Shown: piece after piece, positions 2,953-9,419 of the stretch
Numbering within the stretch: position 1 is the first letter of the stretch
How the letters are laid out: every line of letters begins with the position of its first letter
DNA from: Candidatus Brocadiaceae bacterium
GTDB lineage: Bacteria > Planctomycetota > Brocadiia > SM23-32
Reading direction: 5' to 3'
Assembly: GCA_003567495.1 (NCBI GenBank)
Contig: PWZK01000040.1
Coordinates: 1-10,162, forward strand
Length of the DNA: 10,162 nucleotides
The notes under the pieces: generated by a model
What the model was told of the DNA's origin: nothing
The model's input: the letters and a program-made list of their open reading frames with translations, nothing else
Databases searched by the model: none
Made by a program: the position numbers and the translations under genes

Positions 2953-3015
2953 TATAGTCCTCTGGTTATATCAGCGAACCAGGTTAGAAACAGCGCAGGC
3001 GTTCCAACCCGGCCA

Positions 3016-3053
3016 GTAGGGGCGAAACATCTTTCGCCCAAACGTTTAAACGT
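3016..3053 (+). repeat. REP-like palindrome GGGCGAAA-CATC-TTTCGCCC
   Basis: A perfect 8-bp stem, GGGCGAAA (3020-3027) with TTTCGCCC (3032-3039), closes a CATC loop. It is followed by the 12-bp palindrome ACGTTTAAACGT (3042-3053). The reverse complement of this 38-bp unit recurs at 8873-8910 with 34 of 38 positions identical. The first 18 bases of the stem-loop also recur exactly at 8836-8853, so this is a dispersed repeat family. Confidence 0.75.
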
Positions 3054-3060
3054 GCCCTAA

Positions 3061-3219
3061 CCCGCATATTTCATAAACCAACGACAGGTGTTAATATAAA
3101 GGCTTAATGTTTAGTATGTTAAATAGCGTTTTCAGGGCGACTCTAATTTTACAGTGTGTACCTGAGCTCCGCAAACGGCGGTTTACCCTACGGGCGCGTC
3201 CCCAGCGGCGCATCTGCTT
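3061..3219 (+). repeat. 159-bp dispersed repeat, copy 1
   Basis: This block and 9678-9836 have equal length and the same orientation. The first 23 bases (CCCGCATATTTCATAAACCA then ACG) are identical. So are TTTTACAGTGTGTAC in the middle, CGGTTTACCC near the end, and GGCGCATCTGCTT at the end, while the central part has diverged. The string GCAAACGGCGGTTTA (3171-3185) also occurs inside the small transposable element at 8973-8987. The repeat has no long open frame; its function is unknown. Confidence 0.7.
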
Positions 3220-4050: not shown

Positions 4051-4108
4051 GTATATATCCAGTGAACCACCTGCCTGCAGCAGGCAGGCAGGCGACATGC
4101 TAAAGCCT
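4051..4108. repeat. Mosaic of small repeats between the glycosidase gene and purC
   Basis: Three repeat pieces abut. At 4051-4070, GTATATATCCAGTGAACCAC resembles the IS66-like ends at 8792 and 8937, with an exact CAGTGAACCAC core. At 4070-4088 a perfect hairpin pairs CCTGCCTG with CAGGCAGG around CAG, using the same stem as at 364-392. At 4096-4108, CATGCTAAAGCCT also occurs at 17-29. The purC promoter must lie in or beside this mosaic. Confidence 0.55.
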
Positions 4109-6622: not shown

Positions 6623-8617
6623 TTATTCAATATCCGGATAATCATCAAATTCCGGCTCGATCTCAAAAACCGGAGATTCGGCGTCCAGCTCCAGAACGTA
6701 GTTGTCGCCGACGTCCAGACCGCCGAGCGTAAACGAGTAGATGCCGACGTCCTCCCCGCTCTCGCGCCCGAGCGTGCCGCCAATCTCATTGCCCCTTGCA
6801 AGCGGCGTGTGGGTAAATTCAAGCTCGGGATCATCTTCACCGTAAAGCTTGCCCTGCCCGGCCTCGGGCGTTATCGTGACCGGGCGAGGCTCGATCTCAA
6901 AAACCGGAGATTCGGCGTCCAGCTCCAGAACGTAGTTGTCGCCGGCGTCCAGATCGCCGAGCGTAAACGAGTAGATGCCGACGTCCTCCCCGCTCTCGCG
7001 CCCGATGGAGCCCTCCAGTCTATCGCCCCTTGCAAGCGGCGTGTGGGTAAATTCAAGCTCGGGATCAAAACCTCCGTAAGCCTTGCTTTGCCCGGCCTCG
7101 GGCGTTATCGTGACCGGGCGGGGCTCGATCTCAAAACTCGGTGAATCCTCGGCAAGGACGAGATTACACCTGTAACTTATACGCATATCTTCGAGAGTGA
7201 ACGCGTATTTCCCAACGTCTTCGCCGGATTCGCGCCTGAGAGCCCCGACAAGGGAATCGCCTTCTTCCAGCGGACTGTGCGCAAATTTGAACTCTTCCGG
7301 ATCATCTTCTCCGTAAATCTTTCCCTGTCCCGACCCCGGAGTAATGGCTACATAATACGAATCTTCTCCGTCCAATACATCCCTGACAGCAGCGTTGAAT
7401 TGGTCGCCAAAATTACGTTTGAACGCCGTGAATACTTCATCTGCAATAAACTTGTGTCCGGTTACATTCAGCAGAGGACGATCTCCATATCGGTTATCGA
7501 AATACCGCGCGGGATTATTACACATCATGAATCTCGAAAAAGGGTCGGCAACGGCAATTGCGTTGCGAAACGCCGTTCTTTTGGCAATTCTCGCAAATGC
7601 CCGGGAACTGTGCAATCGTCCTTCAAGAGGCGGGGACGTGACCATTATCAACATCGAATCGGCACTTGCCCGTATTTGTTCTGTAACGGCGGTCAGATAG
7701 TGCTCAAAATCATCCGGCTGCGGCATTCTGGTAGATTCGTCCAGTTGTCCCGCCTTCATCAGCACCTCATGCTCGTGCATGTTTACGAGCTCAATTATCC
7801 CCAAAAATCTTTCCAGCAAATGTCCTTCCGGCGCCGGTATGGTCGTAACATCAAATTTAAGGGGTTTATAGGTGGCCTCGAGTTTTGATTCCAAAATATC
7901 TGCATATAAGGGACCGATCGCCCCTTCAGCGGAATGTTTCTGGAGGGTATCCAGCACAAGTATTCGTATAACTGATAGTTCGGGGCGCATCGAACTCAGC
8001 GCAGAAGGATATGTTGGCGTATCCCTGCCGGTTACGAGTATTACGAGATCACCATTTTTATCTACCAGGTTATCGGCGGAGTCGAGCTCGACACCTTCAA
8101 GACGGGTGGATGCGGAAATTATTGAAATTCGTTTTTTTCGCTCTATTTCGCCGTTCATCATCAGTTCGAAAGACAGCCGGGCGTCTTTCGCAGGCAGTGA
8201 AAACTCCTCGACGAGTTCGACCCACCCGCTTTCGGCCACTGATTCGGGGTTGCCTATTTGTTTTTCGGCCATGATTTGCATCTCTTCTCCCGAAAGATTT
8301 TCCTTACGTATCCGGTAGGAGAGATTCCGGCTCATGCCGGCGGTATCCCGGAATGAAAGCCTGAATTTCAGTGTTTTACCAGACTGCACAACGGGAAACT
8401 CGATAAGTGGCCTGACCGACATTTCAACCGCCGCATCGTTCCCAGATAGAACATCACCCCCCCCCCGCCGTTCGCAGGCATTTAGTTCACCATTATTTCC
8501 GGACTCAACTGCGGTTGCAGAGGTTACCGGCAGGACAAGGCATACCATGGCCAGGATGGCGGCCCATCCGCCCGGCATCGAAGCAGGAAACCCTGCTATA
8601 TGATTTTTCCGGAACAT
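6623..8617 (-). CDS. Secreted protein: degenerate SGNH-like domain plus three MBG-type repeats
   Basis: Predicted exported protein of 664 residues from the ATG at 8615-8617; the frame also opens at a TTG at 8710. The later start is preferred because a TATAAT lies at 8663-8668 and the product then begins with a signal peptide (hydrophobic core about 17-33, ending ATA at 34-36). Residues about 60-170 look like a beta-sandwich. Residues about 189-404 resemble an SGNH/GDSL hydrolase in order and spacing: LVLDT (220-224) where GDS is expected, GQLD (290-293) where GTND is expected, then VTSPPL, then D379-RPLLN-VTGH388 where DGVHLNxxGH is expected. The serine, asparagine and histidine of the triad region all appear replaced, so it is probably not a working esterase. 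Three 78-79-residue repeats follow (about 421-655), each with VTITPEAGQ, YGxxDPE, RESGEDVG and FEIEP. These match MBG-type adhesin/filamentous beta domains. The tail is acidic. No C-terminal anchor is seen. Confidence 0.75.
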   Translation of the reverse strand: MFRKNHIAGFPASMPGGWAAILAMVCLVLPVTSATAVESGNNGELNACERRGGGDVLSGNDAAVEMSVRPLIEFPVVQSGKTLKFRLSFRDTAGMSRNLSYRIRKENLSGEEMQIMAEKQIGNPESVAESGWVELVEEFSLPAKDARLSFELMMNGEIERKKRISIISASTRLEGVELDSADNLVDKNGDLVILVTGRDTPTYPSALSSMRPELSVIRILVLDTLQKHSAEGAIGPLYADILESKLEATYKPLKFDVTTIPAPEGHLLERFLGIIELVNMHEHEVLMKAGQLDESTRMPQPDDFEHYLTAVTEQIRASADSMLIMVTSPPLEGRLHSSRAFARIAKRTAFRNAIAVADPFSRFMMCNNPARYFDNRYGDRPLLNVTGHKFIADEVFTAFKRNFGDQFNAAVRDVLDGEDSYYVAITPGSGQGKIYGEDDPEEFKFAHSPLEEGDSLVGALRRESGEDVGKYAFTLEDMRISYRCNLVLAEDSPSFEIEPRPVTITPEAGQSKAYGGFDPELEFTHTPLARGDRLEGSIGRESGEDVGIYSFTLGDLDAGDNYVLELDAESPVFEIEPRPVTITPEAGQGKLYGEDDPELEFTHTPLARGNEIGGTLGRESGEDVGIYSFTLGGLDVGDNYVLELDAESPVFEIEPEFDDYPDIE
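6654..7355 (-). repeat. Three 234-bp in-frame tandem repeats encoding MBG-type domains
   Basis: The string GGCTCGATCTCAAAA begins at 6654, 6888 and 7122, exactly 234 bp (78 codons) apart. The two C-terminal units (6654-6887 and 6888-7121) are nearly identical over long stretches. The N-terminal unit (7122 to about 7355) is clearly diverged although it keeps the same motifs. This points to a recent duplication or gene conversion of the last unit. Confidence 0.85.
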
Positions 8618-8662
8618 GGTCTTTTTATTTTTAAAAACTTTTTTCTGGAACATATTCACATT

Positions 8663-8692
8663 ATTATAACACATAACCCTTCTCATTTGAAA
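8663..8692 (-). promoter_or_regulatory. Candidate promoter of the SGNH/MBG gene
   Basis: On the minus strand a perfect TATAAT -10 box lies at 8668-8663. A weak TTTCAA -35-like hexamer lies at 8692-8687, 18 bases away. Transcription would start near 8655, leaving a short AU-rich leader before the ATG at 8617. The spacer around it is clearly more AT-rich than the flanking genes. The weak -35 box keeps confidence low. Confidence 0.35.
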
Positions 8693-8791
8693 GAAAAAAA
8701 GGGTTTCCAAAAATTTTTCTTAAACAGCGCATGCTTCGCCAAAAAATATGTAGTTATTTGCTACCCGGCGGCCTTTAGGATATACTTTGTG

Positions 8792-8812
8792 GTAAGTATT
8801 CAGTGAACCGCG
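8792..8812 (+). repeat. Orphan IS66-like terminal repeat
   Basis: GTAAGTATTCAGTGAACCGC (plus one G) matches the left end of the small element at 8937 in 18 of 21 positions, in the same orientation. No matching opposite end or target duplication is visible, so it is probably a decayed one-ended relic of a related element. Confidence 0.55.
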
Positions 8813-8835
8813 TATATTTACGAATATATCCGTAT

Positions 8836-8910
8836 GGGCGAAACATCTTTCGCTCTTTCAGGCACTCGGGGGACGTTTTAACGTTTGGGCGAAAAATTTT
8901 TTGCCCCTAC
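8836..8910. repeat. Inverted pair of REP-like palindromes (BIME-like)
   Basis: GGGCGAAACATCTTTCGC at 8836-8853 is identical to 3020-3037. The segment 8873-8910 is the inverted copy of 3016-3053, with 34 of 38 matches. Two palindromic units in opposite orientation with about 20 bases between them is the usual layout of bacterial interspersed mosaic elements. Confidence 0.65.
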
Positions 8911-8928
8911 AGACCGGTTTAAGAGGTA

Positions 8929-9040
8929 GTTCGCTGGTAAGTCCTCAGTGAACCACGTCTTCCCCGGGAACGGCAAACGGCGGTTTAAGTGCCCATACAA
9001 GCAAAATGATACGTGGTTCACTGAGGACTTACGTTCGCTG
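8929..9040. mobile_element. 96-bp IS66-type MITE with 8-bp target duplication
   Basis: The element spans 8937-9032. Its ends are perfect 22-bp inverted repeats: 8937-8958 starts GTAAGTCCTCAGTGAACCAC, and 9011-9032 is its exact reverse complement. It is flanked immediately on both sides by the 8-bp direct repeat GTTCGCTG (8929-8936 and 9033-9040). Ends beginning GTAAG and 8-bp target duplications are the known hallmarks of the IS66 family. The 52-bp interior has no coding capacity, so movement would need a transposase supplied in trans. Perfect ends and perfect duplication suggest recent insertion. The interior shares GCAAACGGCGGTTTA (8973-8987) with the 159-bp repeat near 3061. Confidence 0.88.
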
Positions 9041-9057
9041 AATATATTCGTTAATAT
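9029..9057 (+). promoter_or_regulatory. Possible tRNA-Pro promoter spanning the element's end
   Basis: TAATAT at 9052-9057 is placed about 19 bases before the tRNA. TTACGT at 9029-9034 lies 17 bases upstream of it and overlaps the element's right end and the target duplication. The -35 match to TTGACA is poor, so this is a tentative placement. Confidence 0.25.
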
Positions 9058-9075
9058 TTATCTCACATTGTGGTA

Positions 9076-9153
9076 CGGGGCGTAGCGCAGCCTGGCTAGC
9101 GCGCGTGCTTTGGGAGCACGAGGTCCCGGGTTCGAATCCCGGCGCCCCGACCA
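9076..9153 (+). tRNA. tRNA-Pro (anticodon UGG), CCA encoded
   Basis: The full cloverleaf can be folded by eye. The acceptor stem is CGGGGCG (9076-9082) with CGCCCCG (9143-9149), followed by T8 and A9. The D stem is GCGC/GCGC. The anticodon stem is CGTGC (9104-9108) with GCACG (9116-9120) around loop TTTGGGA, with TGG at 9111-9113. The T arm is CCGGG-TTCGAAT-CCCGG (9126-9142). A73 and a genomically encoded CCA end the gene at 9153. It reads all four proline codons through UGG wobble, or CCA/CCG mainly. The downstream sequence lacks a clear terminator. Confidence 0.97.
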
Positions 9154-9419
9154 TTCCCCCTAAATCATCTGGACGCCACCTGTCATCGACCGGACATGAC
9201 AGCTCACAATCCGGACAGTTACAGCAATCCGCAAAAATCCCACGTCGTAACCCGGACAGGGAAAAACACCTTCCGGACACAGAATGTGGTTTTCCGGAAC
9301 ATAATATTTGCAGTACGGCTGCGCTTCCCGATGACCTGAAAAAGGTCATCCATGCCTGGCCGGACCTCCCCGAACACATCCAAAAAACCATCCTCACTTT
9401 GTCGGAGAATACCGAATAA
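9154..9419 (+). pseudogene. Probable C-terminal remnant of an integrase-like gene
   Basis: The last 33 codons (9321-9419, TAA at 9417) read AALPDDLKKVIHAWPDLPEH then IQKTILTLSENTE. This amphipathic pattern 'AWPxLPxxIxxxIL' resembles, from memory, the tails of tyrosine-recombinase/integrase proteins in Planctomycetes. Upstream the frame has no start of its own and runs back into the tRNA. A motif CCGGACA recurs at 9190, 9211, 9252, 9273 and (as CCGGAAC) 9294, spaced 21, 41, 21 and 21 bases. It is in one frame (PDMTAHN-PDSYSNP) before about 9230 and in another (PDREKHL-PDTECGF-PEHNICS) after, which suggests a heptad-repeat coding region broken by a one-base indel. No catalytic domain is present. 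The identity is tentative. Confidence 0.4.

Follow-up and report, generated by a model that had tools for sequence, protein, structure and literature searches.

Is the short palindromic stretch beside a tRNA gene in a Candidatus Brocadiaceae genome a mobile element that was inserted into its present place and, if so, which transposase moved it? The stretch lies in a segment of 10,162 nucleotides that was analysed as a whole, here called the window, and a sequence-only reading had taken it for a miniature IS66-type element. IS66-family elements, which comprise the groups IS66 and ISBst12, have ends that begin with GTAA and make 8-bp target duplications.

Structure of the element

The element spans positions 8937–9032 (96 bp) and sits between a gene start and a neighbouring tRNA-Pro gene (TGG; 9076–9153, plus strand), which lies 36 bp past the right copy of the target duplication. 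Its first bases are GTAAGT. It is bounded by a left terminal inverted repeat, GTAAGTCCTCAGTGAACCACGT (8937–8958, plus strand), and a right one of the same sequence (9011–9032, minus strand); the two 22-nt arms match at 22/22 positions, i.e., with 100% complementarity, and are separated by 52 nt. The 8-bp sequence GTTCGCTG stands directly outside both ends, at 8929–8936 and again at 9033–9040. The sequence-only reading had given the element the same 96 bp, the same perfectly matching 22-bp ends and the same perfect 8-bp repeat outside them, and was right to the base. The list of open reading frames has no frame of at least 80 aa inside the element, whose length is too small for a transposase gene. 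The end core GTAAGTNNTCAGTGAACC occurs in the window three times exactly and four times at ≤3 mismatches, compared with a mean of 0.06 after shuffling.

The full 96-bp query gave 104 matches in the host genome (E ≤ 10), many of which are single ends. Among the matches listed, the nearest full-length relative is a sister copy of 96 bp on contig C300 with 93% identity, and a 95-bp copy on C340 is 91% identical. The earlier claim that the element had recently moved therefore holds in a relative sense, given that even the nearest full-length copy listed differs by this much. The interior is of a type, here called b, that is also found in the 155-bp copies on C105 and C368: the element matches positions 1–36 of these copies at 100% (97% for C368) and their last 70 positions at 96%, with a 10-bp overlap between the two matched parts. 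The 59 bases missing from the element are flanked by an imperfect 10-bp direct repeat, CCCGGGAACG / CCCGGCAACG. Judged from this alignment, the 96-bp form is what remains of a 155-bp copy after the loss of 59 bp.

Other parts of the window also carry traces of the family. A palindromic module at 358–392 is found inside 183/184-bp copies as well (30 bp exact at 363–392), a patchwork of three adjoining matches at 2967–3100 is family-related debris, and a solo end of the other terminus type (GTATATATCCAGTGAACCACCTGCC...) lies at 4051–4091 on the plus strand, with no partner end seen. The minus strand at 6623–8710 encodes a protein of 695 aa, in which three stretches match MBG_2 (PF18676).

The insertion site

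The window itself contains the target of the insertion. An additional family end at 8792–8813, missed in the earlier reading, belongs to an older member of the family that extends across the site and is interrupted there. The left part of this member (8792–8936, plus strand) belongs to a 155-bp type, here called a, and is 85% identical to C114:8831–8985 and C276:1098–1250; its last 9 bp, the remainder of the right inverted repeat, lie at 9041–9049 (plus strand). The older member has no visible 8-bp duplication of its own (ACTTTGTG / GTTAATAT). Cutting out the 96-bp element together with one repeat brings both parts of the older member together in register, and the flanks joined in this way match other places in the host genome. 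Of 11 such paralogues read, nine are uninterrupted across the site (C276, C263, C241, C61, C350, C94, C346, C114 and C115); the matches on C372 and C108 stop before it. Four of the nine have 8-bp duplications of their own, exact for C276, C114 and C94 and with one mismatch for C115. The uninterrupted form of the window site would read GGTAGTTCGCTGAATATATTC; C263 carries GTTCGCTG exactly at the corresponding position, and C114 reads GGTAGTTTGCTGAATATATAC around it. On these comparisons, the paralogues of the interrupted older member present the empty target site, and the 96-bp element is nested within an older copy of its own family. In the listed matches to the two sister genomes, all that corresponds to this region is family ends and the stretch with tRNA-Pro, so these matches show no orthologous empty site.

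The family in the genus

The host genome (G000; 2,158,195 bases or 2.16 Mb, 387 contigs, 82% complete) contains 115 matches to the 22-mer end at ≤3 mismatches, 55 on the plus and 60 on the minus strand; the same query read backwards gave 0. To define copies, we took neighbouring ends that face each other 45–400 bp apart, each at ≤3 mismatches to GTAWRTNYTCAGTGAACC, on loci L001–L217, counting one row per flank pair; the host-genome pairs come from stretches around part of the 115 end matches. This gave 81 facing pairs, of which 35 are from the host genome, 39 from the same-genus genome G002, four from G001 and three from other bins.

An exact 8-bp duplication flanks 18 of these pairs, and 28 pairs have one at ≤1 mismatch (the 18 included). 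Exact repeats of 4, 5, 6, 7, 9, 10, 11 or 12 bp were found at none of the 81; allowing one mismatch, there are four at 4 bp, one at 5 bp, three at 7 bp and none at 6 or 9–12 bp. When the partners were shuffled 500 times, the 8-bp means were 0.2 for exact repeats (maximum 2) and 0.4 at ≤1 mismatch (maximum 4). At the latter threshold, the duplications are distributed as 14/35 in the host genome, 14/39 in G002, 0/4 in G001 and 0/3 in the other bins. Further copies flanked by different 8-bp duplications, which the sequence-only reading had proposed to look for, were thus found in 28/81 facing pairs, and such copies carry 8-bp repeats unrelated to the ends. The 53 pairs in which a clear duplication is absent are old, rearranged or false pairs. 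A looser scan (≤4 mismatches, ≤5 kb apart) returned 33 pairs of 57–738 bp with a duplication at ≤1 mismatch, 21 of them exact. The longest of these lengths is represented by L127:4285–5022 (738 bp), which is flanked by TTCATACC as an exact 8-bp duplication, contains long palindromes and has no ORF of at least 130 aa inside it. The ends are of two kinds according to positions 7–8: most pairs (58/81) combine one CC-type and one AT-type end, and seven, including the window copy, have two CC-type ends.

The element is a member of a large family in the genus, although its kind, the bacterial MITE, is already known. At ≤1 mismatch, GTAARTCCTCAGTGAACC was found in 3/58 relatives, all from the same genus. 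The two same-genus genomes have 29 and 241 core matches (241 in G002), and 55 further relatives have 0; judged by identical positions, these sister genomes correspond to two public MAGs, M55B116 (Planctomycetota) and B1Sed10_209R1 (Ca. Brocadiaceae). The wider pattern GTAARTNYTCAGTGAACC, searched with 0 mismatches, was found in two of 392 phylum-wide genomes, a draw that lies outside the sister genomes, namely the host genome and G182. There was no exact pattern match in viral contigs. Single matches in Chthonomonas, Elainella and Elusimicrobia records (L144, L148, L208) look like chance and were set aside.

A lone 22-bp end, GTAAATCCTCAGTGAACCCCGT, lies at L160:2204–2225 in a record from outside Planctomycetota (Omnitrophota MAG Zod_Metabat.338), with no second end at ≤2 mismatches on the 8-kb stretch. 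Facing family ends also occur on L134, L172 and L194 (PUMT01000040.1, PWME01000204.1 and PWNM01000092.1), in bins assigned to Bacteroidetes, Mollicutes and Hydrogenedentota; these are either misbinned planctomycete contigs or cases of horizontal transfer. In G002, an element end lies ≤110 bp from the end of the stretch in 58 of the 79 stretches read (e.g., L191, L122 and L177), and the repeat family therefore probably adds to the fragmentation of this MAG.

Interiors and lengths

The lengths of the 81 pairs peak at 83 bp (19 pairs) and at 154–156 bp (10 pairs). The six pairs of exactly 155 bp have three interiors: a (C114), b (C105 and C368) and c (C222, C27 and C202). The three types do not align with one another, with global alignment z values of 2.5, 0.0 and 0.8 between types and 13.9 and 18.9 within types a and c respectively. 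Single-linkage clustering yields 11 interior families, in which b and c are merged via mixed copies; in direct comparison all that b and c have in common is a GC-rich palindromic piece of 21–23 bp. The nineteen 83-bp pairs have two interiors (types d and e), one in 15 pairs and one in 4, with z = 2.8 between them. Copies with a target duplication exist for each of the three 155-bp and two 83-bp types. A 156-bp pair in G182 has yet another interior and is without a duplication. The two length classes are also separated by genome: 9/10 of the 154–156-bp pairs come from the host genome and 18/19 of the 83-bp pairs from G002.

This pattern could reflect a length rule, where unrelated interiors converge on exactly 155 bp (a, b, c) or 83 bp (d, e) because length and helical phase are selected, and not the interior. 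Short DNA is stiff, and an IS66-type transposase might pair the ends well at certain spacings alone; the difference between 155 and 83 bp is 72 bp, or about seven DNA turns. Since 155 bp is almost confined to the host genome and 83 bp to G002, the transposase of each species may prefer its own spacing. However, copies of 96, 114, 135 and 217 bp also carry duplications, so other lengths move as well, and outside the two length classes no helical period stands out (R 0.05–0.22 for five periods, n = 52), which is evidence against a strict phasing rule. The coincidence of lengths was noticed post hoc, and we put the rule forward as a hypothesis, not a result, and a rather doubtful one. In 83-bp copies of G002 (e.g., L167:2609–2691 and L189:383–465), the ends stay the same but the inner hairpin CCACCGTGCCCTGTGCCGGTGG is found in either orientation, which looks like a flip or an exchange of the interior.

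IS66 pieces in the host genome

A connection between the family ends and a transposase gene is seen at C119:1–750, an IS66-like 3′ end in which the C-terminal frame of TnpC runs to its stop and is followed by about 460 bases and then by the family terminus at position 750. This TnpC matches those of C274 and of the genome G348 with E values of 3e-7 and 2e-7 when searched alone, and of 2e-4 and 1e-4 among all loci. A second copy of the stretch, at 78% identity, lies at C195:2–647; directly next to it stand the final 52 bp of a 155-type copy, an arrangement that looks like an insertion into that copy. On C119 and C195, therefore, a terminus is common to the MITE and to an IS66 element of the same genome, the latter incomplete in the assembly. 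A stretch on C220 is 85% identical to C119:13–150; its PF03050 match is weak and falls below the cut-off (E 6.6e-4).

Further pieces lie at or near family ends. On C147, a family terminus is joined to two fragments of TnpC that lie in different frames. One is a coiled coil and the other the beginning of the DDE domain; the sequence that should separate them and the sequence that should follow are missing. The PF03050 match here is below the cut-off (E 5e-4), and the 52-aa piece is recovered in 3/391 other genomes at E 1.9e-8 to 7.5e-7, and the inner sequence matches C119 at 1–60 and 104–192. Pieces of tnpC are also found about 20 bp (C179) and 74 bp (C279) from a family end, and N-terminal TnpC pieces lie at or near the contig ends of C168 and C201. 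A 147-bp pair on C105 carries KLIPKGMYHHSFWVGV, which resembles the first part of the DDE domain. Although this protein match is weak (E 1.3e-4 and 0.006), C147 is matched at the corresponding place at the DNA level too (E 5e-5 and 8e-5), and by these resemblances the pair probably carries a TnpC relic. This pair has no duplication of its own and lies inside a 259-bp pair that has one. In the search that gave the C105 relic, a stretch of C277 that reads UvrA-like by eye scored 1.25e-4, so such E values are not decisive alone; the tblastn matches of the C147 relic on C277 and L171 were rejected as relics. Interior homology to the IS is thus present on C147, C179 and C279 and probable on C105, and for the interior of the window copy none was detected.

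The host genome has four PF03050 matches, two of them above the cut-off (C351 and C274). The tnpABC-like IS66 element on C351 was rejected as the driver, as its single clear end, GTAAGCGCTTAGTAAAG, is unlike the family ends. The idea that C274 shares subterminal sequence with the copies was also dropped, because its 400-bp end matched itself alone (87 stretches, E 0.5). In the host genome, no intact transposase gene flanked by exactly these ends was found, and the nearest is that of G047, with 18/22 positions. Because the assembly is 82% complete, this does not prove that an intact TnpC with family termini is absent. The pieces look like one multi-copy IS broken up by assembly; such a loss would be an explanation, which we offer as that and not as a demonstration.

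IS66 and DruA elements in relatives

Similar ends bound coding elements elsewhere. An IS66 element of 1722 bp in G348 (same phylum) has an 8/8 duplication and ends at 3 and 4 mismatches from the family consensus, with its tnpC in two overlapping frames. In G047 (same class; contig C202, L243), tnpC and a DruA gene lie between 22/22 ends, GTAAACATTCGGTAAACTACGT, in an element of 2737 bp; these ends agree with the family consensus at 18/22 on both sides, and no target duplication is visible (2/8). DruA is a known phage-defence protein. As on this contig, tnpC is directly followed by a DruA gene (PF14236, Druantia protein family, formerly DUF4338) at C274:1898–4233 of the host genome (L215), where the single end, GTAAATATTCGGTTACCACGT, has 7 mismatches in 22 ungapped positions and 3 over the first 18 positions of a looser consensus. 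In G182 (another family, same phylum), for which 10 of 14 pattern matches were listed, two elements with DruA last (C38 and C133) stop at GTAAATATTCAGTGAACC, which equals the 18-bp core exactly (18/18). The first 60 bp of the C133 end recur on C132 and C150, and no tnpC was seen on the fetched stretches of these DruA elements.

Twelve IS66 loci were also scanned for ends and duplications, trying the starts GTA, GCA and GTG. Two of them combine an 8/8 duplication with good inverted ends, L242 beginning GTAAAT and L248 beginning GTAAGT. For L244, the duplication is 8/8 but the ends match at 9/22, which was taken as chance.

DruA homologues are present in 24 of 75 genomes of the class, with 29 matches in one genome, and DruA therefore looks like a transposon gene here. 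We fetched 30 DruA loci, of which 24 have no end within 4 mismatches. A well-placed end was found on C274 (3 mismatches) and in G047 (2 mismatches). The DruA locus on C133 of the host genome has an end at 2 mismatches, but inside an ORF, and L258, L263 and L282 have one end each at 4 mismatches, where shuffles give 0.16 per locus. The C133 ORF (L283:113–2413) is 766 aa long, with a DruA-like N-terminus and a C-terminus that by eye resembles an IS4/Tn5-type transposase. In G015, ten DruA matches have nearly equal scores, in open frames of 750–811 aa. No paper pairing IS66 with DruA was found in the openly accessible literature searched, outside which most subscription journals lie.

What moved the element

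Taken together, the locus is very likely an IS66-type MITE, i.e., a miniature transposon that depends on a transposase supplied from elsewhere, and was moved by the TnpC of an IS66 element that has the same termini and is present in several copies. The TnpC would bind and pair the two ends, and the element would enter GTTCGCTG via an 8-bp staggered cut followed by gap repair. Elements of this kind would arise by internal deletion of an IS, by interior exchange and by slippage, and the short elements would then multiply by means of the IS transposase. The sequence-only reading of an IS66-type MITE is supported, and the checks meant to break it left it standing. Its expectation of an IS66 element with matching ends is borne out by the fragments on C119, C195, C147, C179 and C279, by the degenerate end of C274 and by the relatives, though not by an intact copy with exactly these ends. 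That an IS66 transposase elsewhere in the genome drives the element stays inferred, because tnpC linked to these ends was seen just in pieces.

The mover could alternatively have been a transposase of a family other than IS66, with the IS66 pieces near the ends as bystanders. Such a mover would fit the 0 PF03050 matches in both same-genus genomes, despite 241 ends in G002, the unlike ends of the tnpABC-like element on C351, and the combination of DruA-like and IS4-like parts in the C133 frame. However, the C-terminus of TnpC is contiguous with the family terminus on C119, C195 supplies a second copy, and tnpC pieces are near an end on three further contigs (C147, C179 and C279). Moreover, the related IS66 elements of G348 and G047 have similar ends on both sides, and the 8-bp duplication is the same as in the IS66 elements L242 and L248. 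We consider another family of transposase distinctly unlikely.

Transposition itself is hardly in doubt. A fixed structural element that was never transposed, i.e., an RNA hairpin, an attenuator or a REP-like palindrome near a tRNA gene, would fit the strong predicted hairpin of the 96 bp (−46.3 kcal/mol, z −6.84) and the position between gene start and tRNA-Pro, but inverted repeats of 22 bp by themselves make the hairpin strong. The family has copies at many places, each with its own 8-bp duplication, and the flanks form an interrupted family member; both speak against a fixed element. In addition, no terminator-like site was found in 8600–9200, and Rfam at gathering score found the tRNA alone. 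The sequence is not conserved as a fixed structure in distant relatives either: even for the sister genomes, the matches listed cover, besides family ends, no more of the flanks than the stretch with tRNA-Pro. A fixed structure is accordingly very improbable. Finally, the chance is negligible that the direct repeat arose by coincidence or merely follows from the resemblance between GTTCGCTG and GTTCACTG in the family inverted repeat. The target was part of the right inverted repeat of the older copy, which accounts for the likeness between the duplicated 8-mer and the ends, and this copy is restored in register when the element and one repeat are taken out. Other copies have 8-bp repeats unrelated to their ends, and 18 exact duplications stand against a shuffled mean of 0.2.

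Relation to known elements and significance

An IS66-type MITE is like other bacterial MITEs (Correia, Chunjie, ERIC, MITEPsy1) in being short and non-coding, with inverted ends, a target duplication, many copies and variable sizes. Chunjie of Geobacter uraniireducens has one 235-bp copy and 37 of 178–235 bp with conserved ends, along with 57 partial copies (PMC10969869). MITEPsy1 has 100 nt with 18-nt ends, is thought to derive from ISPsy2, and duplicates 4 nt, whereas the window family duplicates 8 bp (PMC3189936). The family differs from known bacterial MITEs in its IS66-type ends, in its host, an uncultured planctomycete genus, and in having several unrelated interiors between the same ends with two preferred lengths. 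The family itself, or any IS66 MITE in Planctomycetota, was not found in the literature searched, which covered openly accessible papers and has most subscription journals outside it; the main text of the MITE review contains neither 'IS66' nor 'Planctomyc' (PMC10969869).

With the IS66 family, the window element shares ends that begin GTAA and the 8-bp duplication, and related elements carry DDE_Tnp_IS66, whereas the window element has no gene. Where the ends of a related element are similar, the genes seen between them are tnpC by itself (G348) or tnpC and DruA (G047, C274), with no tnpA or tnpB noticed there, and the ends of the tnpABC-like element on C351 differ from those of the MITE. Among the IS66-DruA elements, the likeness to the MITE ends extends to 18/22 on both sides in G047, to one degenerate side in C274 and to the exact 18-bp core in G182; the element of G047 differs in being coding and 2.7 kb long, and those of C274 and G182 are seen in part.

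The find is mostly ordinary, with the fixed lengths of many copies as its one puzzling feature. It documents that IS66-type MITEs have expanded in a planctomycete genus that is still uncultured; the CC-type ends were found in 3 of 58 relatives, all of them from this genus, and the window itself shows an empty site and a nested order of events. The family may help to explain the fragmentation of such MAGs. Because its short members combine one pair of ends with many different interiors, it also provides natural material with which to test whether the transposase follows a length rule.
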